A stretch of 64,000 bases of DNA, taken from contig NZ_JARGEN010000059.1 in NCBI RefSeq assembly GCF_029211125.1, positions 1 to 64,000 on the forward strand, in the 5' to 3' direction. Source of the DNA: Curvibacter soli. Lineage in GTDB: Bacteria; Pseudomonadota; Gammaproteobacteria; Burkholderiales; Burkholderiaceae_C. Positions 14,995 through 49,860 of the stretch are shown piece after piece (position 1 is the first letter of the stretch; every line of letters starts with the position of its first letter). The position numbers were made by a program, and so were the translations under genes. The notes below the pieces were generated by a model. The model was not told the origin of the DNA, made no database searches, and saw only the letters and a list, made by a program, of their open reading frames with translations.

Positions 14995-15026
14995 AAAAAA
15001 CCCGCCAGGGACGGGCCGCGCGGGTT
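14995..15026 (-). terminator. Possible terminator downstream of the rarA 3' end
   Basis: On the minus strand AACCCGC (15020-15026) pairs with GCGGGTT (14999-15005) and is followed by a T-run reaching 14995. It lies about 170 bp after the rarA stop and just before the MITE. Confidence 0.55.
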
Positions 15027-15196
15027 GGAGGTGGCGCATTGTAGCCAGGGCCCCGCAAGGCCGGAAATCACGGCCAGAAAGGGTTTTCCCGGGCATTCGG
15101 GCTGAATCAGCGCGAATTTCACTGCATTAGAAATACTGATTGAACCGATTTGCCAGTCCTCCTGCTTATCGCAGGCCCGGCCATCGGCCACAGTCT

Positions 15197-16162: not shown

Positions 16163-16228
16163 ACGGTCACTAAAGCACTGTACTTTGTTATAAAATAACG
16201 ACTTACAACGATTTTTAACAGGCTTTTC

Positions 16229-16283
16229 GGCACAAATTTCTTGAACGCGGCACAAATTTGGCACAAACTTTTTTCTTTGTGCC
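16229..16283. promoter_or_regulatory. Arm-type repeats near attL, upstream of the integrase
   Basis: GGCACAAA occurs at 16229-16236, 16249-16256 and 16260-16267, and inverted as TTTGTGCC at 16276-16283. The same octamer recurs at the other element end (49313-49320 and 49324-49331). The position between the core site and the integrase gene suggests integrase arm-binding sites that may also regulate int. Confidence 0.7.
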
Positions 16284-16346
16284 GATCTGGCTTTTAGCAT
16301 TCTGCGGCCGCACATTTTTGCAGCCACACCACATGAAGGATTTAGC

Positions 16347-20600: not shown

Positions 20601-20978
20601 CTCGTTCAGGCCATCCAGCAAGGCTTGGGGCTTGTTGAAATACCAGTCCAGATAAATCTCTGTGAAGAGCAGAGACAGATACTGGAAATACTTCATATTG
20701 AGAACGGTGCCCTCAAGCTTGTTACGCCGTTCGGTAATGGCGTTCCAGTGCTGGACGATGTTCAGGTCATAGCGGCGAAGCTCTTGCTCACTGAACCGAT
20801 CCACTTCAAACAGGTTCTGAGTCAGCTCATGAAAGAAGCCGGTTTGCCCATCATCATCTATGCCTTCGTGCCGATCTTCACCCAGACGAACTTTCAGACC
20901 GGCAAGACTGCCCCCCTTGAAGAAGCCCAACAACCACTGGTTAAGAACAAGCTGTTTGTGAAAGCTGGCCATGGTCAA
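17667..20978 (-). CDS. Type III restriction-like helicase-nuclease (Res-type subunit)
   Basis: This 1103-residue protein has a superfamily 2 helicase core: Walker A ATGSGKT (157-163), a DEGH box (259-262), and a later segment IQLFGRGVRLKGRDYSL that fits motif VI. Near the C-terminus, PD (1000-1001) followed by IDPKG with D1020-x-K1022 forms a PD-(D/E)xK nuclease motif, as in type III Res subunits. It should cut unmodified DNA together with the upstream methyltransferase, whose stop overlaps its start by 4 bp. The unusual point is the third partner, an SNF2-type ATPase upstream in the same operon. Cutting mode and target sequence cannot be read from the sequence. Confidence 0.88.
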   Translation of the reverse strand: MTMASFHKQLVLNQWLLGFFKGGSLAGLKVRLGEDRHEGIDDDGQTGFFHELTQNLFEVDRFSEQELRRYDLNIVQHWNAITERRNKLEGTVLNMKYFQYLSLLFTEIYLDWYFNKPQALLDGLNEQLKTYNKQADADNRFQPFNADELNKLAFWNATGSGKTLLLHVNIRQYLHYFQNGKDTYPDKIILLTPNEGLSRQHLAELNLSGFGFSRMFEKNRSGVFKGTIEIIDINKLGDEMGDKTVAVEAFEGKNLVLVDEGHRGTGTAAGAWMSRRETLVRGGFAFEYSATFGQAVAKGFTVQKAEAELMKKKAKVLFETTNLKKLDESQKQSLTLTTEEKRRARTLATREVYAKSILFDYSYKFFYEDGYGKESLILNLKDEDFSQEDIARQYFTACLLSFYQQQYLWGANRDKLTDFNIEKPLWVFVGNTVSGEDSDILNVLRFFAGFLNDEAKTKLWLKDLLANTARLLDGKGRNIFHDRFTPLMAFSADDVYSGILKLLFNADAKQRLKVVNLKNSKGELVLRVGESEPFGLINIGDDAGFFKEAEKPENLALFDTEADDFGGSVFGTLNNKDSELHVLIGSRKFTEGWSSWRVSTMGLLNMGKGEGSQIIQLFGRGVRLKGRDYSLKRSTPAQRPKGAHLERLETLNIFGVNAGYMAAFKEYLKEEGITPTDEIIELDFETRPNLPKSKLKTLSLKDGYKDNQIKGFKRTVYPWLYEVPAEFAGKIKEAHITLDLYPKLEALASQDKGGAGPEGNIRHMGKIASETMALFDFDRIYLAVQEFKQLRSWSNLRLDRARLMDFCLDHHDWYTLFIPKSELSIRGFADILKQEEILIRLLQDYTDRFYKSLKSAYEGQFYDIVTVKEDDDTLLKVYQFEIEDTEDGEAYEKKLKQLQALVRDGKLGEASQWNAGQMVAICFDSHLYYPLFAIEGAVPLKMRPLAFDAPSEIQFVRDLEAFYQSPLGQQIIGKRSLYLLRNADTKAKGLGFALAGNFYPDYLLWLVDEETGQQCLNFIDPKGIRQMNLTDPKLGLYKEVKVLQEKLGDPKLTLNAFILSGTAFGDLLNVTCKQQELEERNVLFMDEGGPAYLKKMFERTGVL

Positions 20979-23900
20979 GCTTCCGTGTTGAACATGCGGG
21001 ACATGAATTCAGGTTCGATCTGGCGAATCTTCAGTGTCTTGGTGATACCCCCTTCGGCTTCCGTACTGGTGAAGACCGCCGGAATGTTGTGATCACCATT
21101 GATGTACACCACATCAAATTCACTGTCGGCAGGATTGATCGCCAGCTTGTCGCACAAGCGGTTGAGTTCGTCATAGGACAGTTTTTCAACATCACGCCAC
21201 AGCACCAGAGCTTTTTCGCCAGACGGAAGCACACCCGTAACGGCGACAAACCCCCGGTCAATTTGCATATCTACATGCTTGACCCGCAGGCCAATCAAGT
21301 AGTTGAAGGTTTCCACCAGGTCAATGGTTCGCTCTTCATAGGCCCCCGCAGAATCTACCGTTACCTTCAATTTGAAGTCAAAAGGGTTCTTGAACTGATC
21401 AACTGACAGCAAGGAGCCACGGCTTTCTACATCCAGCATGTATCGCAGTAGATAGTCTTCCTTCGCTTCTGACGGCATAGACTCAAGAAGACTTTGCTGT
21501 GCTTTGGAACGGATCAGATGAAGATTGTTCAGCGTATCCTCATAGCTCTCAAGTTTAAGAACTTTGAAAGCATGGGAGATTCCTGTTTGAGGTGCTGTCG
21601 CCTTGCCATCCTTCCAGTCTGCGGAAAAAACCACTTTTTGGATGCGAGGCTTTGTTACGGTATCAAAGTATTCGCCTTGCTCAACAATAATGTACTTTCG
21701 CTGCCCTTTGTCTTCGCGGTTCAGATTGATTACAGCGTGTCCTGTTGTGGCAGAACCGCCGAAGTAGTCAAGAATAATTGGGTTTGAGTCATCCGCAGTT
21801 GAGATATGAATACACCGCTTTACGAGATTTATCGATTTAGGAAAATCAAATCGCTTCTCACCAAACATGTCAATCAGTAGGGTGTTTCCATAGTTCCCAG
21901 CATCAAACTCTCCGCCAGTCCAAACAGTTTTTGGGACAGTAAGTTCGTGTGTGACAAATAAATCAAGTGCGCCATCTACCTCAATGACGGTTATGCGATT
22001 TAGGTTGCGATGTATGGACTCCAAACCGAAGTTCCATCGCCGTTCTTCACCATCTTGGTCAATTGGCCAAATTTCAATTTCTCCATTTGGCATATATACA
22101 TTTTTACCCGCAGGATGGAATTCGTCTTCAGGCACTGAACCAACTCGAACGATCTTTCCATCTTTCACATAAATTGGGTAGAAAGAAGGGCGCCGGAGGA
22201 CACGTAGCGAATTTTCACCCCACCTACGCATTTTTCTTGGCTTGTCATTTTCTTCAGATGTTCTAGCGATATACGTCTTGCTATCAGCTTTTGTGAGGAA
22301 CAATGCGTACTCATGCACTCTATTAAAGTCTTTGGTAATTGACCCCTTCGGGTTATGAACGACGGAGACCGTTGAAAGCTTGTAGGACGGGGCGGCATCT
22401 TCCAGAATAATGGAAAGATTTACCATTTCAGAATCGTCAATAGCAACGACCTTAACTCCGTTGTCGTTGAGGAGCCTCATTGAGAGCGCAAGCCTGTCTT
22501 GCATCAGACTTGCCCAAGATGAATGCTTGTATTCGTTCTTGTAAAGAATCGGAGTTGAATTTGTATTGTATGGCGGATCGATATAAACACACTTGACCTG
22601 ACCACGATACCGCTCCTGCAACAGATTTAATGCCTGAAAGTTGTCGCTATGTATCAGCAGTCCGTTCAAGTTCTCATCCAGAGAGTCAATTATTGAAATC
22701 AGGGAATGTTTGAATTTGACGTCAAAAAGAGCCGTATCAACCATTAGGAATTGATGACGTTTCAGATAGCCAATACCATCTTTACCACCTTGATTAAATA
22801 GGTCTTCTTTGCCCTCCAACATCCCAAGTTCGCCCCACTGCTCCCACTGCTTTTTGTTAGCCACCACCTCTGAGTAAAGACTCTCTGGAACACGATCAAG
22901 AGTGATGCAGTAGTTGGTGCTAACGACAAACTTCTTCTTCAGCCAAAGCTTCTTCTGGAAGTTTTCAAGTTGTGCAAGAAAGGTGATCAAATCCAGTGCA
23001 ATAGCACGAAGTGTCTGGATTAGGCGAAGTGATTTCTCAATGACAGAAAACGTCTCTGCCGATTGCACATCGTCAAGATGCATCACTTCATTCTTGATAT
23101 AGAAGTCCAGTTCGCGACAAAGAAAACCACCCAAGTCTTTATGAATGAAGTAGTCGGCTGAATTCTTCGTGGTATAGCTGGTCAGGCTCTTTTCCAACAA
23201 AGTTCGTTGCGGATTTTTCTCTGTCGGTTCTCTTCGGCTCAGGTCCAGCCAACGCGCTTGAACAGCAGGATCGGCAAGAATGGCATCAACGGCCTGGGAT
23301 ACCAAAACATCCTGCTTGCTGCCTTTTGGCATGGCCTTGTAATCAAAGCGAATCACCAGCTCGTTGCCGACTTCTTCAATCGGCAAATACTCTTGCTCAT
23401 ACTCATCGCCGTTCTCATCCAGAAGGGTTCTGGTGTGCTGGTTAATGAGAACAAAGCGCCGTTCCTTGTCATTGTCCTTGCGGTTGTCTTTGGCAGTATC
23501 CGCAGCCACCAGACGAAACTTGACGGTGCGACCATCATCCAGCTTGAAGCCATAGTTGGAGAAGTTCTCGCCGCTCTTGGTGTAATACTGATCTTTGTTC
23601 GCCCAGTGCAACACCACTTCTTCCCCGGCATAGGGAATGGCATAAGTATCACCCTTGTAGCGCCGCTGGCTGATGAAGTCGCCCTTCTCGTAGTAGCGGG
23701 AAAAGAAGGTCAGCAAATGGGTGAAAACAGCGTTTTCGTGTTCAGCCCCGCCAGACCCCAGATCAGCAATTTTCTGCCGCAGTTCCTTGACCTTGGGCAC
23801 GGTGTCGGGGTCCATGCCGTCAGCCCGATACTGGGTTTCCTTGTCCTTCAGCTCTTTTTGCAAGGCTTTCAAGTTGCCCGCGCCAGAGGCAGAAAGACTT

Positions 23901-24052
23901 TCAGCAACTTTTGCTTTTAGTCCGTTCTCAAGGTAGTCATTGATCTCCCCCACACGGGTATTGAGTATCCGATAGACCCCAAAGTCCAGTTCAGGACGAT
24001 CAATTTGAAAAATCTCTTTTAGCTTGCGAACCAGGTCGTCGTATTTGCTCAT
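20975..24052 (-). CDS. Type III-like DNA methyltransferase (Mod-type, beta class)
   Basis: This 1025-residue protein has the amino-methyltransferase motif DPPY (492-495) before the SAM-binding motif DYFGGSATTGHA (from D762). That order is the beta-class one used by type III Mod enzymes for N6-adenine methylation. An N-terminal region of nearly 400 residues, larger than in classic Mod proteins, includes KEIFQIDRPELDFGVYRILN. The target-recognition region is expected between about 550 and 720. GC there (around 21,800-22,500) is lower than in the flanking parts, as often seen for swapped recognition domains. It lies between the SNF2 ATPase and the nuclease gene. Confidence 0.9.
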   Translation of the reverse strand: MSKYDDLVRKLKEIFQIDRPELDFGVYRILNTRVGEINDYLENGLKAKVAESLSASGAGNLKALQKELKDKETQYRADGMDPDTVPKVKELRQKIADLGSGGAEHENAVFTHLLTFFSRYYEKGDFISQRRYKGDTYAIPYAGEEVVLHWANKDQYYTKSGENFSNYGFKLDDGRTVKFRLVAADTAKDNRKDNDKERRFVLINQHTRTLLDENGDEYEQEYLPIEEVGNELVIRFDYKAMPKGSKQDVLVSQAVDAILADPAVQARWLDLSRREPTEKNPQRTLLEKSLTSYTTKNSADYFIHKDLGGFLCRELDFYIKNEVMHLDDVQSAETFSVIEKSLRLIQTLRAIALDLITFLAQLENFQKKLWLKKKFVVSTNYCITLDRVPESLYSEVVANKKQWEQWGELGMLEGKEDLFNQGGKDGIGYLKRHQFLMVDTALFDVKFKHSLISIIDSLDENLNGLLIHSDNFQALNLLQERYRGQVKCVYIDPPYNTNSTPILYKNEYKHSSWASLMQDRLALSMRLLNDNGVKVVAIDDSEMVNLSIILEDAAPSYKLSTVSVVHNPKGSITKDFNRVHEYALFLTKADSKTYIARTSEENDKPRKMRRWGENSLRVLRRPSFYPIYVKDGKIVRVGSVPEDEFHPAGKNVYMPNGEIEIWPIDQDGEERRWNFGLESIHRNLNRITVIEVDGALDLFVTHELTVPKTVWTGGEFDAGNYGNTLLIDMFGEKRFDFPKSINLVKRCIHISTADDSNPIILDYFGGSATTGHAVINLNREDKGQRKYIIVEQGEYFDTVTKPRIQKVVFSADWKDGKATAPQTGISHAFKVLKLESYEDTLNNLHLIRSKAQQSLLESMPSEAKEDYLLRYMLDVESRGSLLSVDQFKNPFDFKLKVTVDSAGAYEERTIDLVETFNYLIGLRVKHVDMQIDRGFVAVTGVLPSGEKALVLWRDVEKLSYDELNRLCDKLAINPADSEFDVVYINGDHNIPAVFTSTEAEGGITKTLKIRQIEPEFMSRMFNTEA

Positions 24053-24074
24053 GTTCTCACTCGTTTAATCATTT

Positions 24075-26963
24075 TTAGACCACTGCCCACTCTAGGGAAA
24101 ACAGGGTTTTGGATTCGGTTTTTTGGGTCAGACGTTTTTCCAGCGACTCAATCAGGGCATCCCGTTTTTCAATGATGTCGTCTTCCACTTGAAAAATTTC
24201 CTGTCGCTGTCGGCGCTGCTGCTTTTCCAGCTTTTGGATACGTTGCTGTATCTCGTGCTGTTCGTCCAGGTTCGTAGCCAGCCTGGCCTGCCGCTGTGCA
24301 ATCTTGATCTGCTCTTTGGTGTCCCGCAGGGCCTTTTCAGCCGCCAGAACCAAGTCATCAGCCCATTTTTCCAGTTTCTCACGGGCTTCATTGAAGTGCT
24401 TGTTGTTCGCTTCCAAGGACTGGCTGATGGTGGCTTTGGCATGGCGCTGGGACTCTGCCGCGAGTCTCGTCACCACCGAGTCAGGAATTGTCGTCGGAAC
24501 GGCGCTGTCGGCCATGCAGTTGAACAACTTTTCGCAGGTTTCTTGCTCAAGGGGTGAGCCACCGGCATCCACGGCAGAGAACAGCAAATACTCTTCCCGC
24601 TCGTAGCTGTCTATCGCCAAGGCTGTCAGGGTCAGGTAGCCCCGCTTACCCCGCAGCGACTCCACCAGGTGCAGGCGGGTTGGGTGCTGGCTGACATTGA
24701 AAATCACCTTGGCAACGGGGGTATCCAATGCCTTGGCCTGATCAATCACATACTCGCCCAGCGGGTGCGACAGTCGGTAAAGGTAAGTACCGTAGTCGGG
24801 ATCATCCTTCGCTATGGACTTGGGCCCTGACTTGGAAATCAGGTGATAGCGACCCGCAGGGATGCTTTGCGAAGGTGGCTTTGCAATATCAAAAGCAAGG
24901 TTTTCGTTATCAAACCGGGCTTGGTCACGGAGCATGAACTGAGTGACTGACCAGAACCGTTTGCTGAATTTGTCTAGCTGGGCCTTGGTGTCGGACAACT
25001 GAACCCGCAAACGCTCATGGACATCTTCGTCAAAATTCTCAAGCAACATCTTTCGGGTGTCGCTCATCCTTGCTTGGATGCGCTCGTCCATTTCAGCTTG
25101 CAGGGCTTTGAAGGCAGTTTCGATTTCTTCTGGGGTTCTGCATTCCTGATAGATGGTCAGGATGCGCTTCTCAAAATCCACCCCTGATTCAATGCTGCCC
25201 AGCACTTCATCGGAAGCCCCGAACACCCCGTTGAACAGGTTGAATTTTTCGGTCAGTAGCTCCAGCACACGGCGATCTGCCTGGTTACGCTCGTTCAGAA
25301 AGTTGATGACGACCACATCATGCTTCTGACCATAACGGTGGCAACGGCCAATCCGCTGTTCAACCCGCTGGGGATTCCAAGGCAAGTCGTAGTTGATGAC
25401 CAAGGAACAGAACTGGATATTCACCCCTTCCGCCGCCGCTTCGGTGGCGATCAGGATGGTGCCCGTGTCCCTGAAATACTCAATCAGGGCCGTCCGAATA
25501 TCAATGTCACGAGAGCCAGCAATCCGACCCGTGCCTTGGTTGGCCATCAACCACTTCTCATAGATGGCGGTGGCTTCAGGGCTGTTGTTGGTGCCACTGA
25601 ACAGAACAACTTGCCCGGCATAGCCGTTCGCTTCAAGGTATTCCTTCAGGTAAAACTGTGTCCTTCGGGATTCGGTAAAGATCAGTGCTTTCTTCTGTGC
25701 CCCAGTGACGGCCATCTGCTCAAAACCAATATCCAAGGCCGACAACAGGCTTCTGGTTTTGGTGTCGGTGCCGATGCTTCGTGCCAGTTCAGCCAATTCA
25801 GCCAGCAGGCGGATTTCTTCATTGAGTTGCTTGCGGTCTATGTCTTGTGGCTGGGTGTCGCCGTCTTCTTCAAGCTCATCCAGTTCCAGGATCTCGTCCA
25901 GCAAATCGCCTTCAATGTCTTCGTCGGTAATCAGTGACTCGGCAAAATCGGGGTCATCCTGCACTTTTTCATCCCGCAACGCTTCCAGCCGGAGCTTCAT
26001 GGTTTCCAAAGTGCCTGCCACTGCCAAGGACGAAGAAGCCAACAATTTGCGAAGAATCAGCTCTGTCAGGTGTCGTTGCCGATGCGGGATGGCGTAGCTG
26101 TTGGGACGGGTCAGAAATTCGCTGACCGCTTCATAGAGCCGGTGCTCATCATCCGTGGGACTGAAGGGCCGAGTGATTGCTTTTCGCTCTGTGTAACGGA
26201 TGTATTCAGTAACCTGATTGCGAAGGGTGCGACGGCAAAACCCCGACAGCCGCTCCCGCAAACCTTCCAAGTCTCCCCCTGCCGACACATACTGACTACG
26301 GAAGGCATTCACATCACCAAAGATGTGGTCATCTATGAGCGTGGCCAGTCCATACAGCTCAAGCAGGGAGTTTTGCAAGGGGGTTGCCGTTAGCAACAGC
26401 TTGCGGCAATCTTCCATGGCCCACCGAAGACCTTGACCAATCTTGTTGCTCTCACGGTAGGAGTTGCGTAGTTTGTGGGCTTCGTCAATGACTGCCAGGT
26501 CCCACTGAATCGCCTTGAGCTCATCCCGAATCTTGTGAGCATAGTTGTAGGACAGGACAACAATCGCCTTCTGGTTCAGCGGTGACTTGCCCTGTTTCAG
26601 GAAATCACGGGAAGTCTTGGCATCCAGCACCACGGCGGGCAAGTTGAATTTTTCTTCCAGTTCAAGCGCCCATTGCTTGCGCAACGAGGCAGGGCAAATG
26701 ACCAGCAGACGGCGACGGCGCTCAGACCAATACTGGCAAAGAACGATCCCCGCTTCAATGGTCTTGCCCAAACCGACTTCATCAGCCAGGAGCACGCCCT
26801 TGGAGAGTGGCGACTTCAAGGCAAACAGGGCGGCTTCAATCTGGTGGGGGTTCAGGTCGACACTGGCGTCAAACAGGGACTGAGACAGACGACCGACGTC
26901 ATTGGGAGCATGCCGTCTGGTCAGCTCGTGAGCAAAATACTTGGCATGGAAGGAAGTGATCAT
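24075..26963 (-). CDS. SNF2/RapA-type helicase-like ATPase of the restriction operon
   Basis: This 962-residue protein has the SNF2 motifs LLADEVGLGKTIEAG (GLGKT at 64-68) and DEAH (160-163). VLFSGTNNS and VNIQFCSLVINYDLPWNPQRVEQRIGRCHRYGQ in the second lobe mark the HepA/RapA-like group. Residues from about 810 to 950 are strongly charged and likely coiled coil. Such ATPases occur in DISARM (DrmD) and other defence operons, but the other DISARM core proteins are absent here. I chose the ATG at 26963 (MITSFHAKYFAHELTRRH) over the TTG at 27014. It is the first gene of the three-gene operon, 22 bp before the methyltransferase. Confidence 0.85.
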   Translation of the reverse strand: MITSFHAKYFAHELTRRHAPNDVGRLSQSLFDASVDLNPHQIEAALFALKSPLSKGVLLADEVGLGKTIEAGIVLCQYWSERRRRLLVICPASLRKQWALELEEKFNLPAVVLDAKTSRDFLKQGKSPLNQKAIVVLSYNYAHKIRDELKAIQWDLAVIDEAHKLRNSYRESNKIGQGLRWAMEDCRKLLLTATPLQNSLLELYGLATLIDDHIFGDVNAFRSQYVSAGGDLEGLRERLSGFCRRTLRNQVTEYIRYTERKAITRPFSPTDDEHRLYEAVSEFLTRPNSYAIPHRQRHLTELILRKLLASSSLAVAGTLETMKLRLEALRDEKVQDDPDFAESLITDEDIEGDLLDEILELDELEEDGDTQPQDIDRKQLNEEIRLLAELAELARSIGTDTKTRSLLSALDIGFEQMAVTGAQKKALIFTESRRTQFYLKEYLEANGYAGQVVLFSGTNNSPEATAIYEKWLMANQGTGRIAGSRDIDIRTALIEYFRDTGTILIATEAAAEGVNIQFCSLVINYDLPWNPQRVEQRIGRCHRYGQKHDVVVINFLNERNQADRRVLELLTEKFNLFNGVFGASDEVLGSIESGVDFEKRILTIYQECRTPEEIETAFKALQAEMDERIQARMSDTRKMLLENFDEDVHERLRVQLSDTKAQLDKFSKRFWSVTQFMLRDQARFDNENLAFDIAKPPSQSIPAGRYHLISKSGPKSIAKDDPDYGTYLYRLSHPLGEYVIDQAKALDTPVAKVIFNVSQHPTRLHLVESLRGKRGYLTLTALAIDSYEREEYLLFSAVDAGGSPLEQETCEKLFNCMADSAVPTTIPDSVVTRLAAESQRHAKATISQSLEANNKHFNEAREKLEKWADDLVLAAEKALRDTKEQIKIAQRQARLATNLDEQHEIQQRIQKLEKQQRRQRQEIFQVEDDIIEKRDALIESLEKRLTQKTESKTLFSLEWAVV

Positions 26964-27072
26964 GGCCCTGAACTGTCTAGTTATGTGTTCAACAAGGGGA
27001 CACCGCCCCCCCAAGGAACCGGGCTCGTCAGCATCCGATGCAACGGCACCCCATCATTCTAAGCCACTACCC

Positions 27073-36262: not shown

Positions 36263-39200
36263 ATGATGTTGCGCAACTATGCTTCCATGACCAATCTGGA
36301 GTATCACGAGAAGCAACTGAACTACAACAGCACGTCGTTATTGGCTTCGATTGCCGAGCAGTTTCCCGACGAGCAATGTCATGACTTGAATGATCCCCGA
36401 TTTGCCGAGTTTCTGGCCGACAATCCCTACAACCCAAAGCTATTGGGTGATCTGGCGCAGAGCTTGGGACTGGACGGTAAATTTCTCAGCCCTGAGCTAT
36501 GGAAGGACTTGTCCAACGGCTGGTGTCCCGTGTCCGAATCATCGGCGTTGTTCAGCCAGGCACAGGACACCCCAAGGGGAAAAATGGTGCAGTTCAGGAA
36601 GACGGCCACCCCGATCAATCCTGACAGCAGCTATCGTTACCCTGCCAAGGGCGAGCAAAAGAACCGACTGGGAACAGAGTTCATCTTTTGCTTTGGCGAA
36701 CGACTTTCAACGGCGATGGCGTTACTGGCCACCGAAGACCCCAGCATTGAAAAACGCTTCAGCCAGCTTTGCAACGATGTTTTCAGGCAGGCTGTTGTCC
36801 CTGAAATGCTCAATCTGGCCCGTATCCGAAAAGGTCAGGATGGCACCGACTACCAGTGTGCTGCCGAAATCTTGGGTATCCCCTTCTTCCATATTGACTC
36901 GCGCTCAGAGAGTCCCTTTCTGCACTTCCACTTTGATCTGCTGAATGTTGCCCGTGGCTACGACGGCAAGCTCTACAGCCTTTGCACGGATGAGATCGGT
37001 GCCAATGCTTCAGCGCTGGACGCCATTTTCATGCGCCACATGAAGGAAGGTCTGGAACGAGAATTCGGCTTTGTCTTCGATTCGGTCAAGCACGATGAGG
37101 ACGTAGCCAACGAGTTTCTTCAGGAGCAGGAACGAAAAACGGTTTCCTTTGACTTGCCCGAATCCTTGATCCCTGCCCAGGTCCGTGACTGGCGATCCAC
37201 CCGCGAAAGAGAGATACAAAAGGCGTTGAAAGCTTCGGGGAAATCCGGCTACCAGGCTGAAGAGCTTGCCCGCCTGACTTCCCGTGACGAAAAAACTGAC
37301 AAGTCACCGGCTCAACTGAAGGCCATGTGGCATCAGGAATTTCAGCGCATGGGCTGGACACCGACCCAGTTCAAGCAGGAATTATCCCGTGTCAAAGCAA
37401 CCCACAAACCCCAGCCGCCGCTGACGGCAGAAGTCATGGAAGAGACCTTTCTTCGTCATCACAAGGATGTGGCGATGACCGAGAGCCAATATCTGGCCCA
37501 CATCCAGAAACAACTGTTGCCCAGCATGAGCGGCGAGCAAGCCGAACGAGAAGCCACCCGAATTTTTGAACAGGATTCCGTGCTGTCCATGAGCAAAGAG
37601 CAGATGGACTACTTCAAGCCCTTATTGGACGACACGATCACCGATCCCAACCACCGTCAGTCCATGCAACTGCGATTCATGCGTGAAGCCCGTTTTCTGC
37701 ACCGATCCACGATTGCCAAGGATACCTATATCTCATCCAGCCTGAAGGCACGTGAGCAGGAACAGGGGTTCAGGTTTGACCGTGATCAGGTGGCCCGTTT
37801 CATTCTGGACTACGAGCGTCAGCAGTCCAGTCCCGACCGAAAATTCAAATTTGCACTAGGTCAGCGTGAAGCCGTGCAGATGATCCTGACCGAACCAGGG
37901 GCTGTTTGTAATGTGGCAGGTAGAGCCGGCGCCGGTAAATCCACCTTGTTGAAGGCGGCCCGTGAGTTCTATGTGGCTCATGGCTTCAAGGTCTTCGGGA
38001 CTTCCACCAGTTCAACGGCAAGCAAGGGTCTGGCTGAATCCACAGGCATGGGCTCAAGAGAATTCCACAACACCACCAAACTGATACGTCTGCTGGACGA
38101 AGGGAAGTTGAAACTGGATCGTCAGTCCGTTCTTTTCTGGGATGAAGCTGGGATGGCCGACACCAACACCTTCTACCGTGTGATCCAGCATATAAATAAT
38201 GCAGGGGCGAAGCTGGTTCTAGTTGGTGAACGTGAGCAGATCCAAAGCGTGGGATTTGGCTCAAATTTTTCTCAGCTCAATAAGGATTTCGTCACGACCC
38301 CGGTTCGTGAGATCAACCGACAGGTGGATCAGTGGCAACGCGAGATGGTGGAAGACTTTGCCAGTGGCCGAGCCCATCAGGCGATTCGTACCCTTTACGA
38401 AAACGGCAAGGTCATCATCACCCCTTCTGACGAGCAGCGTCTTGCCCAGATCGTCAATGACTACCTTTCGGCGAACAGCCCAGCCAAAGACAAAATCATC
38501 TTGGCCACCACCAACGACGACATTGAGCGCATCAATCTGGCAGTACGAACCCAGCTCAAGCAGTCAGGACAATTGCCAGAGCTAGAAGTCGTGGTTCAGT
38601 GCAAGGATAAGCAGGAACGAGCGTTTGCCAAGGGGGATCGTGTGGTTTTCACCAAAAACCAGAAATCCGACGATGCCGACACCCAGCAACTCAACAACAG
38701 CGATACAGGGGAAGTCAGTGAGATTTTCTTGAGCAAACTCACCGGCCAGCCGAAAGCGATCAAGCTCAAGATGGATGACGGCAGGGAAACCGTGCTGGAT
38801 CTCGGAAAATCCCATGCCCTACGCCATGCCTACGCAGTTACGGTGCATAAAAGTCAGGGGGAGACCAAGAACCAGTCGTTCTACTTCGTATCCAGCAACA
38901 CGAACAGTCTGCACCATGCCTATGTCGCTTGTTCTCGTCACCGTCATGAATTGAAGCTGTATCTCAGCGATGACATGGTCAGCCATATGGAAAGCAAGCT
39001 GGACGGCAAAGCCCCCACGGCATCCATGAAACAAGTTGCCCAGTGGATTGCCCGTGAAAAAAATCTGGACCTACCCAGTGAAACCTTGGAGTCCTTCACC
39101 GAGACCCGAAGCTTTCTGGACCAGCATTGGAAAGCGACGACCGGACACGCCCCCCATCCCTTGGATCGCCTGACCAGTATTGTGGAAGCGATGGCGAAGA

Positions 39201-39445
39201 CCAATTTCAAGAAGACCAGCCACGACTACGAAATCTTGGATGGCAAAGCCCGCAACACCTACGAAGCCTTGAAGATGGCACGGGTTGAGCAGATTCGCCG
39301 TACCCATACCCTGCCCCCCACGATTCCCGATGGTGTCAAAGCCCAATTGGTGCAGCACAACCTTCAGTCTCAACAATCAGCCCGGTTGAAGCAGCTTGCC
39401 ATGCAGCAGGCACAACAACAGACACGATCCACCATGCACAGATAA
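36263..39445 (+). CDS. MobF-type relaxase-helicase (TrwC/TraI-like)
   Basis: This 1060-residue protein nicks oriT and unwinds DNA for transfer. The three-histidine metal site is present as H210 (FFHIDSR), H221 and H223 (FLHFHFD), with the same 11- and 2-residue spacing as TrwC. Candidate catalytic tyrosines are Y6, Y14 and Y21. The helicase part has Walker A GRAGAGKST (553-561), DEAGM, GEREQIQ and the late motif TVHKSQGET, all of RecD-like superfamily 1. The region normally reading FSAPKSVS is FCFGERLST here, so it is a divergent MobF protein. ATG ATG start codons at 36263 and 36266 are both possible. Confidence 0.88.
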   Translation: MMLRNYASMTNLEYHEKQLNYNSTSLLASIAEQFPDEQCHDLNDPRFAEFLADNPYNPKLLGDLAQSLGLDGKFLSPELWKDLSNGWCPVSESSALFSQAQDTPRGKMVQFRKTATPINPDSSYRYPAKGEQKNRLGTEFIFCFGERLSTAMALLATEDPSIEKRFSQLCNDVFRQAVVPEMLNLARIRKGQDGTDYQCAAEILGIPFFHIDSRSESPFLHFHFDLLNVARGYDGKLYSLCTDEIGANASALDAIFMRHMKEGLEREFGFVFDSVKHDEDVANEFLQEQERKTVSFDLPESLIPAQVRDWRSTREREIQKALKASGKSGYQAEELARLTSRDEKTDKSPAQLKAMWHQEFQRMGWTPTQFKQELSRVKATHKPQPPLTAEVMEETFLRHHKDVAMTESQYLAHIQKQLLPSMSGEQAEREATRIFEQDSVLSMSKEQMDYFKPLLDDTITDPNHRQSMQLRFMREARFLHRSTIAKDTYISSSLKAREQEQGFRFDRDQVARFILDYERQQSSPDRKFKFALGQREAVQMILTEPGAVCNVAGRAGAGKSTLLKAAREFYVAHGFKVFGTSTSSTASKGLAESTGMGSREFHNTTKLIRLLDEGKLKLDRQSVLFWDEAGMADTNTFYRVIQHINNAGAKLVLVGEREQIQSVGFGSNFSQLNKDFVTTPVREINRQVDQWQREMVEDFASGRAHQAIRTLYENGKVIITPSDEQRLAQIVNDYLSANSPAKDKIILATTNDDIERINLAVRTQLKQSGQLPELEVVVQCKDKQERAFAKGDRVVFTKNQKSDDADTQQLNNSDTGEVSEIFLSKLTGQPKAIKLKMDDGRETVLDLGKSHALRHAYAVTVHKSQGETKNQSFYFVSSNTNSLHHAYVACSRHRHELKLYLSDDMVSHMESKLDGKAPTASMKQVAQWIAREKNLDLPSETLESFTETRSFLDQHWKATTGHAPHPLDRLTSIVEAMAKTNFKKTSHDYEILDGKARNTYEALKMARVEQIRRTHTLPPTIPDGVKAQLVQHNLQSQQSARLKQLAMQQAQQQTRSTMHR

Positions 39446-40360: not shown

Positions 40361-42826
40361 ATGACTATCAGAAGAGAGAACAAAGCAAAGTGGATGTTAC
40401 CCGGCGATCAGCAGCCCTTGGACACCACCATTCAGACGGTTCATGTCGGTTCAGCCATGTTCATGGGGCTTTTCGTCACCGTGATTGTTACCAGCCTTGT
40501 TTTGTTGTTGTCGTGGGCCAACTACCCCTTCTTTCCTGCACCACCCAGCGAGCGACCACCGATTTTTCATGTGCAGGCGTTCTGGCAAGTCCTTGCTGGA
40601 CTCGTCTCCAAGCTCTTTCAGGGGGAAGTGTTTCACTACTACCATGCTTATCTACACCGTCTAAACCAGATCGGCATGGGCGATTACCTTGTCTATCGTT
40701 GGTTGATGGCCATGGTTGGCGGTGTGGCTTGTGGTGGCTGGGTCTTCTGGAAATCGCTCAAACCCGTGGGGGGGGTTCGCCATATCAGGGGCAAGGAACT
40801 GCTGGAAGGAAAAATCGCCTACGGTATCTTGAAACGCGAATTTGGTTTTCTTTGCCGCAACGGGAAGGGTTCAGGCTTGGTGATCGGCGCCGACCAGGAA
40901 TTTAATCCCACCAACCCGAAGCATTACAGCCCCCAGCATCTAAAGCCAGGCCGATTCATTGAGAAGCCAGAAACCCTTCGTCGTTCGCACGCTCTCTATA
41001 TTGGTGGAACGGGGCGCGGCAAGACTCAGCTCATCTACTTTCTGGAAGTAGCTCAGGTCTATCAACGTATTCGCAACGGCGAAGCTCTCAAATTATTGAT
41101 CGCCGACACCCCGAAATCGGACTACTGCAAGTATTTCCACAGTAGCCACATCATCAAGATTGCACCCCATGAAGAAGGTGGGGTTTGCTGGAACATCGCG
41201 GAAGACTTACGCAACCCGTTGGTGGCCAATGCTTTCTGGAAGGGAAAAATCCCCGTTGAAGAGAGCAACGAGATTTGGTCACTGGCTGCCGTAGCCGTCT
41301 GTACAGGGGCAACCAAGGTGTTACAGATTTTGGCACCGAAGGCATGGAACTACGGCATGTTGGCCCATCTGCTCACCAGGAACGGCGAAGCGTTGTCCCT
41401 GATCATTGGAGAGCACTACCCTGAAGCCCGACAGGTCTTGAATTCAGCCAAGGACACCTTGGCCAGTGTCATGTTCAATCTGGGCACCTACACGGCTGAC
41501 ATCATTCAGTTGGGACGAATTCACGATTGTTACGACAGCAAGACCCCGGTCTATCAAGCGACAGCCAGAGCCTTACGTTCTTCGGCTTATCTGAGCTTTG
41601 TCACCCAGGATATGGTCAATGATCAATTGAGCGATGAGAATGAAACCATCCGTTTGAAGAAGACCTGCTACTTCAAGGGGGTTTGCCTACATCTCAAGCG
41701 AAAACAGCCAAACTGGCAGTGGAAGGACTTTGCCGAGTTCGTCAAACAACCGATTGACGAGCAGAACCAGCGCATTTTTCCCTATCTGAGCGGCAATGAG
41801 AAAGCTGCACTCATGAAGCCAGCGTTCATGGATGGCTGGAAAAACTTGTGTGCCACCATCGTTCAGTATGCTGACGAATGGGACAAGGCAGAAGGCATCA
41901 ATAAACTGTCCATTCGTGCTTGGATCATGAACGAGAAGCCCAAGCGAAAAGTGCTCATTTTGAAGCCTTCCGAGAGTTTTCCCACACTGACCGAAGGACT
42001 GATCAAGGGCATTCTCTACTTCGCAAACACGGTCATTCTGGGAGATTTGACCGACAGCCGTAGCCGTCGCTTCCACATACTGATCGATGAATTCCAGTCT
42101 TACGGCAACATTGAAGCCTTCACCGCACCTGCTTTATCGCTGTATCGCTCAAGGGGGGTCAGTCTCAGTCTGGCCATGCAGGATCTCGCGCAACTGGTGA
42201 AAATTTACGGGCAGGAATTCGTCGACTTCATCACTGCGAACACCGGCAGCATGTATATCTTGGGGGTCAATGACGGCTTCACAGCCAACAAGTTTTCCGA
42301 GTTGTTGGGTGAAAAAACCATCGCCAAGCTGCACCGTAGCGTGAGCCATAGCGACGGGGGCAAATCTACATCCGTGGATGAACAGCACCACCAGGAAAAA
42401 GTCATGGGGGCCAACGAGTTCAACTTGTTGGGGGCCAATGAAGCGACGCTAACCATCACCTATCTGGCTTTGTTCGCCCGACAGAATCCGGCCTACATAC
42501 TGACAGCACCGATCTTGTCCTACAAAACCAGAGCAGAGAGCAAACCGGCCGCATGGATCGATGCCCAGCCGAACAGTCCTGTACTCCCAGACATGGATAG
42601 ATTTTGGGATGTTTCCCACGACAGCTATCAAGCACCACAACCGGCAATCTCAGCCACCCAGACCATGATAGATGAACAGCTAGACCATCTCTACGACGGC
42701 TACTGTGACGACCTTGAAAAAGAATTTGCCACACAGACGGATGCGGATCGCCTTGGCTTCATCGCCGAACCAGGCCCGTTCGCAATGTATCAGGAAGGAA
42801 ATGATCCAGAAGAAGGTGCCCGATAG
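40361..42826 (+). CDS. Type IV coupling protein (TraD/TrwB/VirD4 family)
   Basis: This 821-residue inner-membrane ATPase links a relaxosome to a type IV secretion channel. The N-terminus has two membrane segments (SAMFMGLFVTVIVTSLVLLLSW and MAMVGGVACGGWVFW). Walker A is GGTGRGKT (215-222) and Walker B is FHILIDEFQSYG. SLAMQDLAQLVKIYG and ITANTGSMYILGVNDGFTANKFSELLG are the usual later T4CP segments. Carrying its own coupling protein while lacking the rest of a secretion system is notable. It lies downstream of the relaxase on the same strand, past the repeat cluster. Confidence 0.88.
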   Translation: MTIRRENKAKWMLPGDQQPLDTTIQTVHVGSAMFMGLFVTVIVTSLVLLLSWANYPFFPAPPSERPPIFHVQAFWQVLAGLVSKLFQGEVFHYYHAYLHRLNQIGMGDYLVYRWLMAMVGGVACGGWVFWKSLKPVGGVRHIRGKELLEGKIAYGILKREFGFLCRNGKGSGLVIGADQEFNPTNPKHYSPQHLKPGRFIEKPETLRRSHALYIGGTGRGKTQLIYFLEVAQVYQRIRNGEALKLLIADTPKSDYCKYFHSSHIIKIAPHEEGGVCWNIAEDLRNPLVANAFWKGKIPVEESNEIWSLAAVAVCTGATKVLQILAPKAWNYGMLAHLLTRNGEALSLIIGEHYPEARQVLNSAKDTLASVMFNLGTYTADIIQLGRIHDCYDSKTPVYQATARALRSSAYLSFVTQDMVNDQLSDENETIRLKKTCYFKGVCLHLKRKQPNWQWKDFAEFVKQPIDEQNQRIFPYLSGNEKAALMKPAFMDGWKNLCATIVQYADEWDKAEGINKLSIRAWIMNEKPKRKVLILKPSESFPTLTEGLIKGILYFANTVILGDLTDSRSRRFHILIDEFQSYGNIEAFTAPALSLYRSRGVSLSLAMQDLAQLVKIYGQEFVDFITANTGSMYILGVNDGFTANKFSELLGEKTIAKLHRSVSHSDGGKSTSVDEQHHQEKVMGANEFNLLGANEATLTITYLALFARQNPAYILTAPILSYKTRAESKPAAWIDAQPNSPVLPDMDRFWDVSHDSYQAPQPAISATQTMIDEQLDHLYDGYCDDLEKEFATQTDADRLGFIAEPGPFAMYQEGNDPEEGAR

Positions 42827-45243: not shown

Positions 45244-46302
45244 CTACATACTGATCGCACAACCCTTTTTTGCGGTGGCAATCGCCTGATCTGCCATGAC
45301 TTGAGCTTGCTCGTTTTTTTGCTGAAGGGTCATTTTGTAGGCTTCCAAATGCTCAATCTGATATTCGGTAGCCTTGGATGCCTGATTAGCTGCCTTGGTG
45401 ATCAAGGTTTTGTCGTCCTGCAAGGCGGAAAGCCATGACTTCAAGTATGCCGCATGGTTTTCATGGCTGGAAGGATTGTGGGGGATACCCAACTCAACAG
45501 CCATGAACGATGAAGTCAGTTCGGCGATCAGCTCTTCTTTTGCATACTCGGTTGTGCCGAATCCGTTTCCCATTTTTCTGCCCAATGCTGGCCCCGTGCT
45601 ATGCCCAAACTCATGTAGTAAGGTGTCGGCATAGGCTTCACTACTCTTGAATAGACCGGGTTCAGGCATATGAACCAGATGCTTGGAAGATGAATAGTAG
45701 GCACGAGAGATCCCAGAGTGTTCCACTTTGAGATCAGTTCTTTCCTGCAAAGCCTTTGAGAGTAGTTCAATCTCTTCAGCCGGTTTCACTTCCTTACTGG
45801 CTTGTATGTAAGGTGGCATTCCTTCAATCTGACAGGCATTGAAAACGGGATACCACTTGAAGCCAATCTTCGGATTGCCATTTTCATCAAGAATAGGGGT
45901 AGCTTTCCCATCACTGTTCTTCAGAACATTACCGTCACTATCTTTCTGGTAGGCGGGAACGACCTTCATGATGTAGCTGGCCTTGGAACCCTTCTTGATG
46001 TGAAGTGGTGTTTCCATTTTTTTGGACAGTTCTTGCATTTGAACGAAGGTCATCCAGCGTGGATCGCTGAACTCTTCAGTCATCAGCGTTGCAACATTCG
46101 AACCGTGATATTTTTCACCAGTCAGGGCATTTCTTGGCCATTCATTGCAACTAAAGAATGGCTTATCCCACTTCAAACCTTGCTCTTCACAAGCAATCGC
46201 TTCTTCAATACGTGTAATGAACTTGTTGGTTAGTTCCTGCTGATAGTCTCGCTCTTCAGTCTTGGCGTATTCTTTCTTTTGATATTGTTTCTTGTATGCC
46301 AT
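45244..46302 (-). CDS. ArdC-like antirestriction protein
   Basis: This 352-residue protein has the ArdC N-terminal single-stranded-DNA-binding domain (KPFFSCNEWPRNALTGEKYHGSNV, DPRWMTFVQM) and a C-terminal zincin metallopeptidase domain with HEFGH (230-234) followed by KEELIAELTSSFMAVELGI, which supplies the third zinc ligand. ArdC proteins protect incoming single-stranded plasmid DNA from host restriction. Its presence beside the mobilisation genes fits protection after transfer, while the element also carries its own restriction operon. Confidence 0.88.
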   Translation of the reverse strand: MAYKKQYQKKEYAKTEERDYQQELTNKFITRIEEAIACEEQGLKWDKPFFSCNEWPRNALTGEKYHGSNVATLMTEEFSDPRWMTFVQMQELSKKMETPLHIKKGSKASYIMKVVPAYQKDSDGNVLKNSDGKATPILDENGNPKIGFKWYPVFNACQIEGMPPYIQASKEVKPAEEIELLSKALQERTDLKVEHSGISRAYYSSSKHLVHMPEPGLFKSSEAYADTLLHEFGHSTGPALGRKMGNGFGTTEYAKEELIAELTSSFMAVELGIPHNPSSHENHAAYLKSWLSALQDDKTLITKAANQASKATEYQIEHLEAYKMTLQQKNEQAQVMADQAIATAKKGCAISM

Positions 46303-46387: not shown

Positions 46388-46960
46388 TCATTGGTCAGGC
46401 TGGTGAAGCCTATCTCCGAGATAGAACAACCCCCAAAAGCTCGTTATAAGCATCTGCCAGAATACAAACAATAAAATCAACATGTAAGATGCAGACACCA
46501 ACGTATGGAAATTCTCTGGAATAATTGCTTTTATTGGAAGATAGATAGCTTGCCCAAAAATAGCAATAACAATAATAATCAGGCTCTCAGCAGTCAAAAA
46601 AGCAAACATTGAACATAAGAATCGTCTTCTTGTAAGCTCAATTGGCACTATTTGACCTTGGACCATAATGTCCAGTTTCGGCGCCGGCTTAGGCATTGTC
46701 TTATCAATGTCTAGCTTGTTGAAGGTAGCAATAGCAGCTAGTGCCGCGATGTAAAAGCCAGGTAGCCCTTGAACAAATCCAAGAATTTTTGAAATGACCG
46801 CACCATCAGCATAAAGTGGGATGTTCCCGTACTTTTTTAATCCAAACAACAGAGCAGTTGATAGCACTGCAAAAATAAGAGGATAGACCCAATCTACCAC
46901 CCATTTCTGCTTGTGCTCAATGGATAGATAGGAAAGAGGTCTAAGTAAATGTCTGAACAT
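46388..46960 (-). CDS. Four-helix membrane protein, partner of the next gene
   Basis: This 190-residue protein has four predicted membrane helices (about residues 25-42, 58-80, 112-138 and 150-177). Between helices 2 and 3 is a polar loop (KLDIDKTMPKPAPKLDIMVQGQ). The start codon shares its position with the stop of the 320-residue gene upstream, so the two form an operon. A small four-helix membrane protein plus a soluble partner is the layout of several antiphage modules (for example Kiwa), but no family is recognised and that comparison is only of shape. Confidence 0.6.
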   Translation of the reverse strand: MFRHLLRPLSYLSIEHKQKWVVDWVYPLIFAVLSTALLFGLKKYGNIPLYADGAVISKILGFVQGLPGFYIAALAAIATFNKLDIDKTMPKPAPKLDIMVQGQIVPIELTRRRFLCSMFAFLTAESLIIIVIAIFGQAIYLPIKAIIPENFHTLVSASYMLILLFVFWQMLITSFWGLFYLGDRLHQPDQ

Positions 46961-47922
46961 TACGCCTCCGGCATCAAAAGCTCTTTCATTTTACCAAGTA
47001 TGGGATCACAAAACTTGTCATATGAAGACTTCAAGTCGAATTCAAAACCGTCTAATTTTTCTTTTTTGACATAACCTTGTGCTGATGCAGCATCTGTATC
47101 CATCTCTACAGTTCTATCAACACCAGTAGGCGTCTTGAACTTGATACGCGCACGACTATAGTCTTCTTTCTTACTGGAAAATACTTTTTTCATCCGATTA
47201 AATTTGTCTTTAATCGGCTTATCTTCATCTTTCAATGTCAAAACAAGCGTTTTGCACTTCTCTTGTATATAACCATCCTCATCAATATTTGTGTATTTTT
47301 CTTTTTCCGTAATTAGTTCGATAGACTGAATTTTTCCATTATCCAAGTCATACTTCAAATCATCAGAAATATGCCCCTCAAATTCACACTTGAAGATTAC
47401 ATTGTACTTTTTCGGCTTACCGGCATCATCAACAGAACCATCTGGATGATTTTGTTCAAAGTCTAGTGGTGCGATAGACTTTGCGTCATGAAGAATCTGG
47501 TTGAGCAATCGCTGGACAACAAACATTCCAAGACCCGCACAATACTCAATCAATACCAAAGCAGGATCTAAGTCGTTTTGTGGAAGTTGTACAACAACAT
47601 GAACAGAAAAATCTTGTCCTTCTTTCTCCTGTTTTTCTGCTGTGCGCCTCTTCTTTTCTTTAGGAATGGTGAATACTGGATCAGACATTCCTTTGTCTGA
47701 CTTGTTGACCAGGATGCTGATGATGTCACCATCCCACTTCCATTCTGACACATAGAGTTGTTCTCGCCCCTTTGACATCTCTTTGATGCGCTGCTCAACA
47801 GGAACAAGCTCCATCAATTGGAAAGCTTTTCTGACCGAAATTGGTTTCGGTGCTTTGAAGGTCCGAGACTCTGCACCAATGGCGAGATCGTAGAAGAACA
47901 CCAAACGTTCGGATTTTTTCAC
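46960..47922 (-). CDS. Unknown soluble protein, partner of the four-helix membrane protein
   Basis: This 320-residue protein is not recognised. It starts MKKSERLVFFYDLAIGAES and has alternating beta-rich segments, one basic loop (PKEKKRRTAEKQEKEGQDF) and a lysine-rich stretch (KFNRMKKVFSSKKEDYSRARIKF) that could touch nucleic acid. No membrane helix or nuclease motif is evident. It overlaps the downstream membrane-protein gene and lies 35 bp downstream of the element rarA stop, in the cargo position next to attR. Low GC suggests recent acquisition. Confidence 0.6.
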   Translation of the reverse strand: MKKSERLVFFYDLAIGAESRTFKAPKPISVRKAFQLMELVPVEQRIKEMSKGREQLYVSEWKWDGDIISILVNKSDKGMSDPVFTIPKEKKRRTAEKQEKEGQDFSVHVVVQLPQNDLDPALVLIEYCAGLGMFVVQRLLNQILHDAKSIAPLDFEQNHPDGSVDDAGKPKKYNVIFKCEFEGHISDDLKYDLDNGKIQSIELITEKEKYTNIDEDGYIQEKCKTLVLTLKDEDKPIKDKFNRMKKVFSSKKEDYSRARIKFKTPTGVDRTVEMDTDAASAQGYVKKEKLDGFEFDLKSSYDKFCDPILGKMKELLMPEA

Positions 47923-47957: not shown

Positions 47958-49262
47958 CTACTTCTTGCCAGCTTCTTCATCCCACTTTTTCAGCAGGTTC
48001 AACTTCTCACCAATCTTACTTTCCAAGCCTCTAGGAACTGGTTGATACCAGCTTGGTTCAGCCATCCCATCTGGAAAATAGGTTTCACCCGCAGCATAAG
48101 CATTGGGTTCGTCATGGGCATATCTGTATGCGTGCCCATAACCCAGTTCCTTCATCAGTTTGGTAGGAGCATTCCTGAGATGAACGGGAACTTCTCGGCT
48201 CTTGTCCTGCTTCACGAAGGCACGTGCCTTGTTATAGGCCATGTAGCCTGCATTACTCTTGGCAGCAATCGCCAGATAGATCACTGCCTGTCCAAGTGCC
48301 AATTCACCTTCTGGACTACCTAGGCGCTCATAAGTCAGAGCTGCATCGTTGGCGATCTGCATAGCTCTTGGATCTGCTAACCCAATGTCTTCCCAAGCCA
48401 TACGAACAATGCGACGAGCCAAGTATCTTGCGTCTGCCCCGCCATCCAGCATTCTGGACAGCCAATAAAGGGCAGCATCAGGATTGGAACCCCTGACTGA
48501 TTTGTGCAGGGCGGAAATCTGGTCGTAGAAGTTGTCTCCCCCCTTATCAAACCTCCGCGAGTTCAATGACAGAGCATTCTTGATGAAGTCCGCATCAATG
48601 TTCGTAACCCCAGCAGCCCCGGCTGCTGTACTGCACTGTTCCAGCAGGTTCAGGAATCTACGGGCATCACCATCCGCATAACCGACAAGTGTTTCAATAG
48701 ACAGCTCTTCAAAGGTCAGATGACCCAGTACCGTTTCTTTTGCCCTGACGAACAGTTCCTTCAACTCATCGTCCGTCAAAGACTTCAGAACATAGACTTG
48801 AGATCGGGACAACAAAGCAGAATTGACTTCAAACGAAGGGTTTTCGGTTGTCGCACCGATGAAGGTTACAAGCCCAGACTCTGCATAAGGCAGTAGCGCA
48901 TCTTGTTGTGACTTATTAAATCGGTGAATCTCATCAACGAACAAGATGGTGTGCTTACCTTGGGCAAGGTTTTGCTCGGCCTGTTCCATCGCTGCACGGA
49001 TGTCTTTGACCCCAGAGAACACCGCCGACAATGCAATGAACTCACAGGCAAACGCTTTGGCGGTCAGTCTTGCCAACGTGGTTTTTCCGACCCCAGGTGG
49101 TCCCCAGAAAATCATTGAGTGCGCTTTGCCGGACTGGAAGGCAAGCTTCAGGGGCTTACCTTCCCCAAGCAGGTGCGACTGCCCAATCACTTCGTCCAAC
49201 ACCCTAGGTCTCAGAGCTTCAGCCAAGGGGGCAACAGGCGATTTTTCGAACAGGTCAGCCAT
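47958..49262 (-). CDS. rarA: Element-encoded complete RarA (MgsA) AAA+ ATPase, replacing the disrupted host copy
   Basis: This 434-residue protein is a full RarA, an AAA+ ATPase that acts at stalled replication forks. It has Walker [10 protein letters not shown], Walker [10 protein letters not shown], the sensor region [19 protein letters not shown] and the whole C-terminal tetramerisation domain. It is closely similar to the host protein along its length, and F115-N116-K117 fall at exactly the same residue numbers. Its DNA is much lower in GC and the codons at the integration site are TTT-AAT-AAG rather than TTC-AAC-AAG. The ATG at 49262 overlaps the TGA of the interrupted host frame by 8 nt (ATGGCTGA), with a weak AGGG upstream. 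It is the last gene before attR. Confidence 0.95.
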
Positions 49263-49303
49263 GTTGAATCCGCCCTAAAATCATGCTGCTACGAGTCTGA
49301 AAG

Positions 49304-49331
49304 TTGTGCCAAGGCACAAAAAAGGCACAAA
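49304..49331. promoter_or_regulatory. Arm-type repeats near attR
   Basis: GGCACAAA occurs at 49313-49320 and 49324-49331, with a partial inverted TTGTGCC at 49304-49310. These match the repeats beside the integrase at the other end, and lie between the element rarA start and the attR core. Confidence 0.7.
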
Positions 49332-49372
49332 ACATATTTTTAAGTCGTTGATTTACAATGACTTTTATATAT

Positions 49373-49380
49373 TTGTTGAA
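49373..49380. other. attR core of the integrated element
   Basis: TTGTTGAA here duplicates the attL core at 16155-16162. To its right, host rarA coding sequence resumes (CCTGTGAATCTCATCGACGA); to its left is AT-rich element sequence. The first 20 or so host bases use AGG for arginine and are less GC-rich than usual, so the actual strand exchange might extend slightly to the right. Confidence 0.85.
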
Positions 49381-49860
49381 CCTGTGAATCTCATCGACGA
49401 ACAGGATGGTCTTCCTGCCCTGCGCGAGGTTGTGCTCGGCCTGCTCCATCGAGGCGCGGATCTCCTTCACGCCCGCGAACACCGCCGACAGCGCGATGAA
49501 CTCGTAGCCGAACGCCTGCGCCGTGAGCCGCGCCAGCGTGGTCTTGCCGACGCCGGGCGGGCCCCAGAGGATCATCGAGTGCGGCTTGCCCGACTCGAAC
49601 GCCAGCCGCAGCGGCCGGCCCGGGCCGATGAGGTGCGACTGGCCCACCACCTCGTCTAGGCTGGCCGGGCGCAGGGCTTCGGCCAAAGGGGCCGTGGGCG
49701 TGGCATGGAACAGGTCAGCCATGGCGGGGCGCCCTCCCCTGTGGCGGGCGCGGCGCGGGCGGTAACGGTGGTCGCATGGGGCCTATTTTCGGCCCAATCG
49801 CCCCGGCCCGGATGCGGATGGCCGCCGGGCCGCCCCCGCAGGAGCGGCGCGCGACGGGGA

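Follow-up and report, generated by a model that had tools for sequence, protein, structure and literature searches.

We identified an integrative element of 33.2 kb in Curvibacter soli (source genome 3.36 Mb in 99 contigs). It lies within the window, by which we mean the whole 64,000-nucleotide stretch of DNA that was analysed, between att cores at 16155-16162 and 49373-49380. G+C content per kb is about 38-55% in the element compared with about 62-74% in the flanks. The integrase is at the left end, and a complete rarA at the right end reads inward from attR. The features of the locus, in window positions, are as follows.

15197-16162, minus strand: 3' remainder of the host rarA, left of attL; its frame is open on to 16348 inside the element
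16155-16162: attL core, TTGTTGAA on the plus strand
16163-16346: left att arm (184 nt), without a stop in the rarA frame on the minus strand
16347-17618, plus strand: tyrosine integrase, 423 aa, Phage_integrase domain (Pfam)
17667-27014, minus strand: three-gene cargo encoding a ResIII-type protein (1103 aa), a type III methyltransferase-like protein (1025 aa) and a DrmD-like SNF2 helicase (979 aa)
36263-39445, plus strand: MobF/TrwC-type relaxase-helicase, TrwC above the Pfam cut-off
40361-42826, plus strand: coupling protein of the TrwB/TraD type (profile match)
45244-46302, minus strand: ArdC-like antirestriction gene (Pfam match)
46388-46960, minus strand: PDC-M53B-like gene (PADLOC E 5.4e-77; no Pfam match)
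46960-47922, minus strand: PDC-M53A-like gene, 35 bp behind rarA (PADLOC E 4.5e-151; no Pfam match)
47958-49262, minus strand: complete element rarA, 434 aa, MgsA_C and AAA domains (Pfam)
49255-49722, minus strand: interrupted host rarA 5' frame, 155 aa (117 host codons and 38 element codons)
49263-49372, minus strand: right att arm, through which the frame of the host 5' fragment continues as far as the start of the element rarA
49373-49380: attR core, TTCAACAA in the rarA direction and TTGTTGAA on the plus strand

The host rarA is cut at Phe115-Asn116-Lys117, after Lys117 of DEIHRFNK. A first-pass annotation of this DNA had placed the split at codons 115-117, and its coordinates hold. It had also described an interrupted frame that crosses attR and ends at 49255-49257 inside the ATGGCTGA of a complete 434-residue rarA. 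We likewise find the host 5' frame stopped by a TGA (49257-49255) within ATGGCTGA (49262-49255), which is the element rarA start, and confirm that the element supplies a complete gene with a start of its own. The host fragments remain truncated with this separate full gene behind, and the identity between attL and attR is limited to the short core TTCAACAA (rarA direction). Three rarA pieces are present in the source genome, namely the intact copy, the 5' piece and the 3' piece; the three other rarA matches are weak, with E values of 9e-10 or worse. Compared with the two host pieces, the element copy has 80-81% identity; no other intact rarA was found in this genome.

The overlap of stop and start codons that the first-pass annotation emphasised is present at 49262-49255 but is not special in itself, as 14 of the 31 other rarA starts scored have TGA at the same place. 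The host's own rarA likewise starts ATGGCTGACCTGTTC. Selection for ATGGCTGA in the elements was rejected since the sequence is common at other rarA starts, and the stop is inherited from ordinary rarA starts.

Judged by its gene content, this is probably a mobilisable integrative element. Pfam scans of 15 of its 23 proteins identified one integrase-domain gene and no secretion-system gene, and the remaining eight ORFs are at most 223 aa in length. Residues R258, K283, H342, R345, H409 and Y419, which we take to be the catalytic set, are unchanged in an alignment of five integrases. The relaxase scores 91.9 bits against the NCBIfam MobF model NF041492, under its cut-off of 100. The cargo cluster at 17667-27014 is restriction-like (PADLOC E 0 for the type III methyltransferase-like protein) and is also found in related elements of Propionivibrio and Zoogloea, where the methyltransferase is more diverged (72-75% against 96-99%). 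Repeated TTTGTGCC motifs occur in both att arms (49342-49364 and within 16163-16346) and are possible integrase arm sites. The right arm also contains an inverted repeat, which resembles a terminator for transcription out of the element. Elsewhere in the window a short MITE-like repeat with inverted ends CTAGTGCAGTGTTC is present in two copies (4617-4711 and 14828-14994), one of which has additional internal sequence.

A scan of genome_contigs, which used one genome per species and exact peptide patterns and hence detects close relatives only, identified an integrase with 97-98% identity in three further carriers: a Rhodoferax MAG, a Propionivibrio MAG and Zoogloea sp. LCSB751. The rarA 3' piece adjoins the integrase in all three. 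The rarA behind the 5' piece is 95-99% identical to the window copy, whereas the host rarA pieces are just 63-75% identical to it. All parts are on one contig only in Propionivibrio, and the Rhodoferax copy leaves its contig at residue 372. Five more junctions (G591, G489, G784, G888 and G971) came from rarA searches of 399 order and 399 family genomes with overlapping membership, in which the four best candidates per genome were scored, and from the full rarA searches of 12 and 17 multi-match genomes that came next. In G784 the full set of parts (3' piece, integrase, cargo, intact rarA and 5' piece) is present over about 43 kb, with an integrase of 44-46% identity. The G784 3' piece is nearly the same as the rarA of its congener G1114, in which the gene is uninterrupted, and this empty-site comparison gives the same core. 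G888 is a remnant in which the 3' piece is a trace (residues 383-430). The contig of G591 ends about 1.5 kb behind the copy, and no host 3' fragment was found in that genome.

In total, the layout occurs in nine genomes including that of the window, which we group into six lineages: the window type (four near-identical elements), G591, G784, G888, G971 and G489. The same codon and the same order of parts are used by the four near-identical elements and by the one with the 44-46% identical integrase. The first-pass annotation had proposed a search for the integrase next to a split rarA plus a second full rarA, and had held that related elements lacking rarA would speak against its reading. This search was run, and no such lack was seen among integrase-bearing elements, because all five that we found (window included) have a rarA copy behind attR.

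Beyond these cases, the integrase was found only in its own genome among 369 class genomes, and again when its profile was used at E 1e-40 against 399 order genomes, apparently the same sample as in the rarA search. Viral contigs gave no integrase match, and ten candidate stretches for the element rarA, none of which was confirmed. All integrase matches in plasmids (2258 records) and phages (50 records) are below 60% identity, with 21-34% among those listed. No further intact extra rarA copy was identified in 61 genomes of the family of G591.

Several other genomes with multiple matches were dropped from the junction count. The split rarA of G809 was rejected as an element insertion; the contig ends overlap by 24 identical nucleotides and the gene reads across the site, so that this is an assembly break. 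G1193 has pieces 2-126 and 121-431 on two contigs and no intact copy, and could be either an assembly break or an element without rarA. In G1021 and G1003 the gene is split at another site, near codon 246-248. The G1021 island has an intact rarA of its own, which is 63% identical and oriented the other way; the G1003 split is at contig ends and a copy was not seen. Second full or partial rarA genes are located elsewhere in G820, G1114 and G1141. The remaining genomes were dropped on their match coordinates as gapped matches, frameshifts, partial duplicates or contig ends.

A tandem duplication of rarA, or an assembly artefact, with no integration at all would also give a 5' piece followed by a full copy. 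This is what is seen in G489 and G971, where neither an integrase nor a 3' piece occurs in the stretches analysed, and the G809 split did prove to be an assembly break. However, both host pieces, the integrase and the copy are on one contig in the window, Propionivibrio and G784, the host pieces mostly belong to another rarA lineage than the copy, and the att core matches the uninterrupted gene of G1114. We consider such an origin extremely improbable.

The distance from the core to the ATG of the incoming rarA is 118 nt in four junctions, 94 in three, and 97 and 106 in the other two, in every case 1 mod 3. All nine junctions have an open host frame and at least one stop in each of the other two frames. 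In eight the host-frame stop overlaps the ATG, and in G489 it is 10 nt before the ATG; an upstream frame that ends on or near a downstream start is one of the features expected of translationally coupled gene pairs. The probability of openness, estimated by dinucleotide shuffling, is 0.10 for the window type, 0.25 for G591, 0.21 for G784, 0.26 for G888, 0.22 for G971 and 0.20 for G489. The product of 6e-5, which supposes six independent lineages, is too strong because the lineages share ancestry: when the observed differences between remote tail pairs are randomised, the frame stays open with a probability of 0.26-0.52 per pair. The window itself was chosen on account of its open frame.

Conservation of the tail peptide was rejected. 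In three pairs of equal length the differences fall on codon positions 1/2/3 in the numbers 5/8/4, 6/7/7 and 6/5/7, and pN (0.20-0.23) is about equal to pS (0.13-0.27). With differences at every codon position and pN close to pS, the frame rather than the peptide seems to be kept, and translation up to the element rarA start, not the product of the tail, seems to be what matters. These data bear on the proposal that fusion proteins are made on purpose, either from the 5' fragment with its Walker A/B region plus a tail or from the 3' fragment with an N-terminus encoded by the element, for example as a modulator of RarA. Such products would agree with the openness of both fragments through the att arms and with a left arm in which pN is about half of pS in window-type elements. 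However, they are difficult to reconcile with a right-tail peptide that is not conserved, with a G971 5' fragment that has lost conserved residues (for example DEVYGFNK for DEVHRFNK) while its frame is still open, and with a 3' fragment not found in G489, G591 and G971 and found only as a trace in G888. We regard purposeful fusion proteins as quite improbable.

Our reading of the junction sequences places Shine-Dalgarno-like purines before the ATG of every copy, and each copy could therefore start independently. The spare rarA may run on its own transcription and translation signals, with the open host frame across attR being incidental. Besides the purine-rich stretches, the frequency of ATGGCTGA at rarA starts in general (14 of 31) fits this explanation, as does a left arm that is also open in the rarA frame, where coupling to the integrated rarA is impossible. 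The reverse orientation of the G1021 island rarA is a further point in its favour and indicates that a spare rarA is not bound to a host frame or a coupled layout. However, all nine junctions are open and in phase at four different lengths with the other frames closed. A strong promoter belonging to the element rarA was the other finding that the first-pass annotation had set against its proposal, and our check for one, a weak sigma-70 consensus scan in the rarA direction that misses the host promoter too, identified no site in the interval between attR and the copy in six junctions. Expression from the element's own signals is possible, though we think it rather unlikely.

We favor, with a probability of about 0.6, a family of elements that uses one internal rarA site and repairs the damage with a complete rarA behind attR, coupled to host expression and with its core altered against self-use. 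The fixed site, the intact copy in five of five integrase-bearing members found, the altered core and the open, in-phase host frame are read directly from the sequence. Translational coupling, by which host signals would run the incoming rarA, is what we infer from them. After integration, RNA polymerase and ribosomes starting at the host rarA would pass through attR, and the ribosomes would end on or within 10 nt of the incoming rarA start codon and then re-initiate. The incoming rarA, together with the genes behind it that are often defence-like, would in this way take over the expression of the host gene.

The target core TTCAACAA codes for Phe-Asn-Lys, including only the first part of the Lys codon. 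The element rarA has TTTAATAA as its own core, which differs through silent substitutions. The Asn codon of the core is AAT in all nine element copies and AAC in 35 of 38 other rarA genes, the latter being best-scoring loci rather than a random sample and including a plasmid-contig copy and the G1021 island copy. TTT is also the Phe codon of the four window-type copies and of G971. A silent change of this kind would keep the integrase from a second target there, and probably shields the copy from self-insertion. AAT makes up 0.25-0.88 of all Asn codons within the element copies, and base composition is a partial alternative explanation for the bias.

Two observations concern the context of individual rarA genes. 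The leader upstream of the single-copy rarA in G694 (L036) is similar to the final part of the G591 tail, which would fit elements that took up rarA along with part of its leader. In G489 (L082) a lolA-like gene (3589-4206) and the host rarA (4203-4646) overlap by 4 nt, and rarA may be coupled to lolA in this host.

In the left arm, 184 nt separate the core from the integrase start in all five elements that have both ends, and no stop interrupts the rarA frame there; the other frames contain stops, with the exception of one in Propionivibrio. By shuffling, this openness has a probability of 0.03 in the window and 0.11 in G784. Once the element is integrated, an open left arm can be of no use to rarA. 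When the two arms are joined, each of the five elements has a single open frame of about 94-103 codons that runs from beside the integrase start through the core to the rarA start codon. We tentatively suggest that the att site may be inside a short leader in phase with rarA, and that, if the leader is translated, its first half would be exchanged on integration for the 5' end of the host rarA, creating an expression switch by recombination; at present we would sooner doubt than adopt this idea. If it is true, rarA and the genes that follow would depend on a single coupling signal, supplied by the element leader while the element is a circle and by the host promoter once it is in the chromosome. 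Decay of such elements, as in G489, G888 and G971, would leave the incoming rarA as the sole intact copy of the host.

Genes matching PADLOC models are next on the same strand behind rarA in four lineages (window type, G784, G489 and G591); the names stand for profile matches and not for tested functions, and the PDC models are candidates. In the window and Propionivibrio they are PDC-M53A/B; G784 has a type III methyltransferase and a restriction helicase, G489 an AbiJ-like gene, and G591 a match to the model Hp1. In G489 and G888 the next ORF begins within the rarA stop. The G888 ORFs have no match (four searched in Pfam, two of these also in PADLOC), and no recognised cargo was seen in G971. 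In Zoogloea ArdC is next, and the available stretch contains no PDC-M53 match.

SXT/R391 ICEs integrate in prfC, and the target is functional after integration; the element provides a new 5' end and a promoter. The target is kept functional in the rarA element also, although the flow would be reversed, from a host promoter to an element gene. In the account of IMEs given by a review (PMC5704250), integration sites are either internal, in which case the target is disrupted, or at a 3' or 5' end, in which case it is unchanged or nearly so. As outlined there, IMEs with a tyrosine integrase share with the rarA element a short att core, a relaxase and a coupling protein. The rarA site is internal, yet a whole second gene compensates, and neither rarA nor mgsA occurs in the main text of that review. 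Islands specific for dusA are similar in what their description covers (PMC4482086), with a fixed target in a conserved protein gene that may remain functional; in the rarA element, by contrast, the 5' end of the host gene is left in place and continues into a complete gene of the element. Helper-embedded PICIs target a prophage gene with an attP that carries no replacement, and a captured gene occasionally provides backup, according to the part of the work concerned with their targets (PMC10111431). The rarA copy differs in being at the att end in five of five integrase-bearing members found.

GInt islands, in the sections on their insertion (PMC5385486), probably do not fully inactivate their targets, and one has an outward promoter; they possess four gin genes, whereas a single integrase-domain gene was found among the 15 of 23 proteins of the rarA element that were scanned. 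The island in G1021 (L128, G1021:C6:32000-51999; 2953-17340) has large recombinase-like genes with weak integrase-domain matches, and this multi-recombinase island at the other rarA site may be nearer to the GInt type. ICEPni1 of Pseudomonas nitroreducens resembles the rarA element in carrying a rarA, annotated among its variable genes, but this ICE integrates in tRNA-Gly genes as far as its description goes (PMC7466150), so its rarA does not compensate for a split target.

Known targets, in the portions of these sources that treat them, end up disrupted or have one of their ends restored, and for a satellite a captured gene serves as backup (PMC5704250, PMC4482086, PMC10111431). A literature search, thin on subscription journals, found among the papers listed no report of rarA or mgsA as an integration site and no case like the present layout. 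What appears to be new is the whole replacement gene plugged in behind an internal target site, in an element family for which the search found no description. This would be another way of occupying a site inside a gene with no lasting damage to the host, in which a whole gene is brought into the host reading frame and the target is neither disrupted nor patched. An element of this design could occupy a highly conserved protein motif common to very different hosts and place its cargo behind the signals of a housekeeping gene, and integration-dependent expression becomes directly testable. It could also be a way in which a foreign copy comes to replace a repair gene.

In a tree of 41 C-terminal rarA parts, in which several forks have modest support, the element copies are scattered among rarA genes of the order and form no single group. 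Because the copies fall in several places, the elements seem to have acquired or exchanged rarA more than once. In four of five cases (Rhodoferax, Zoogloea, Propionivibrio and G784) the host 3' piece groups with another rarA type than the copy. The 3' piece of the window host groups with the intact copy of G971, which makes it uncertain which of the two rarA genes in G971 is the foreign one. Single-copy rarA genes that are 84-88% identical to the element copy could be scars of lost elements, although we found no 5' remnant in the loci checked. Among the matches listed for family genomes, rarA falls into two groups by identity to the element copy, about 74-88% and 60-70%. Both occur within one genus, g3 (87% in G501 and G1043, 68% in G227 and G1105), as if rarA had been replaced by transfer. 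Finally, a second full rarA (1966-3255, 60% identical) is present on a separate 242-kb contig, G1114:C2 (L111), which may be a plasmid; in the tree it clusters with the copy from the G1021 island.
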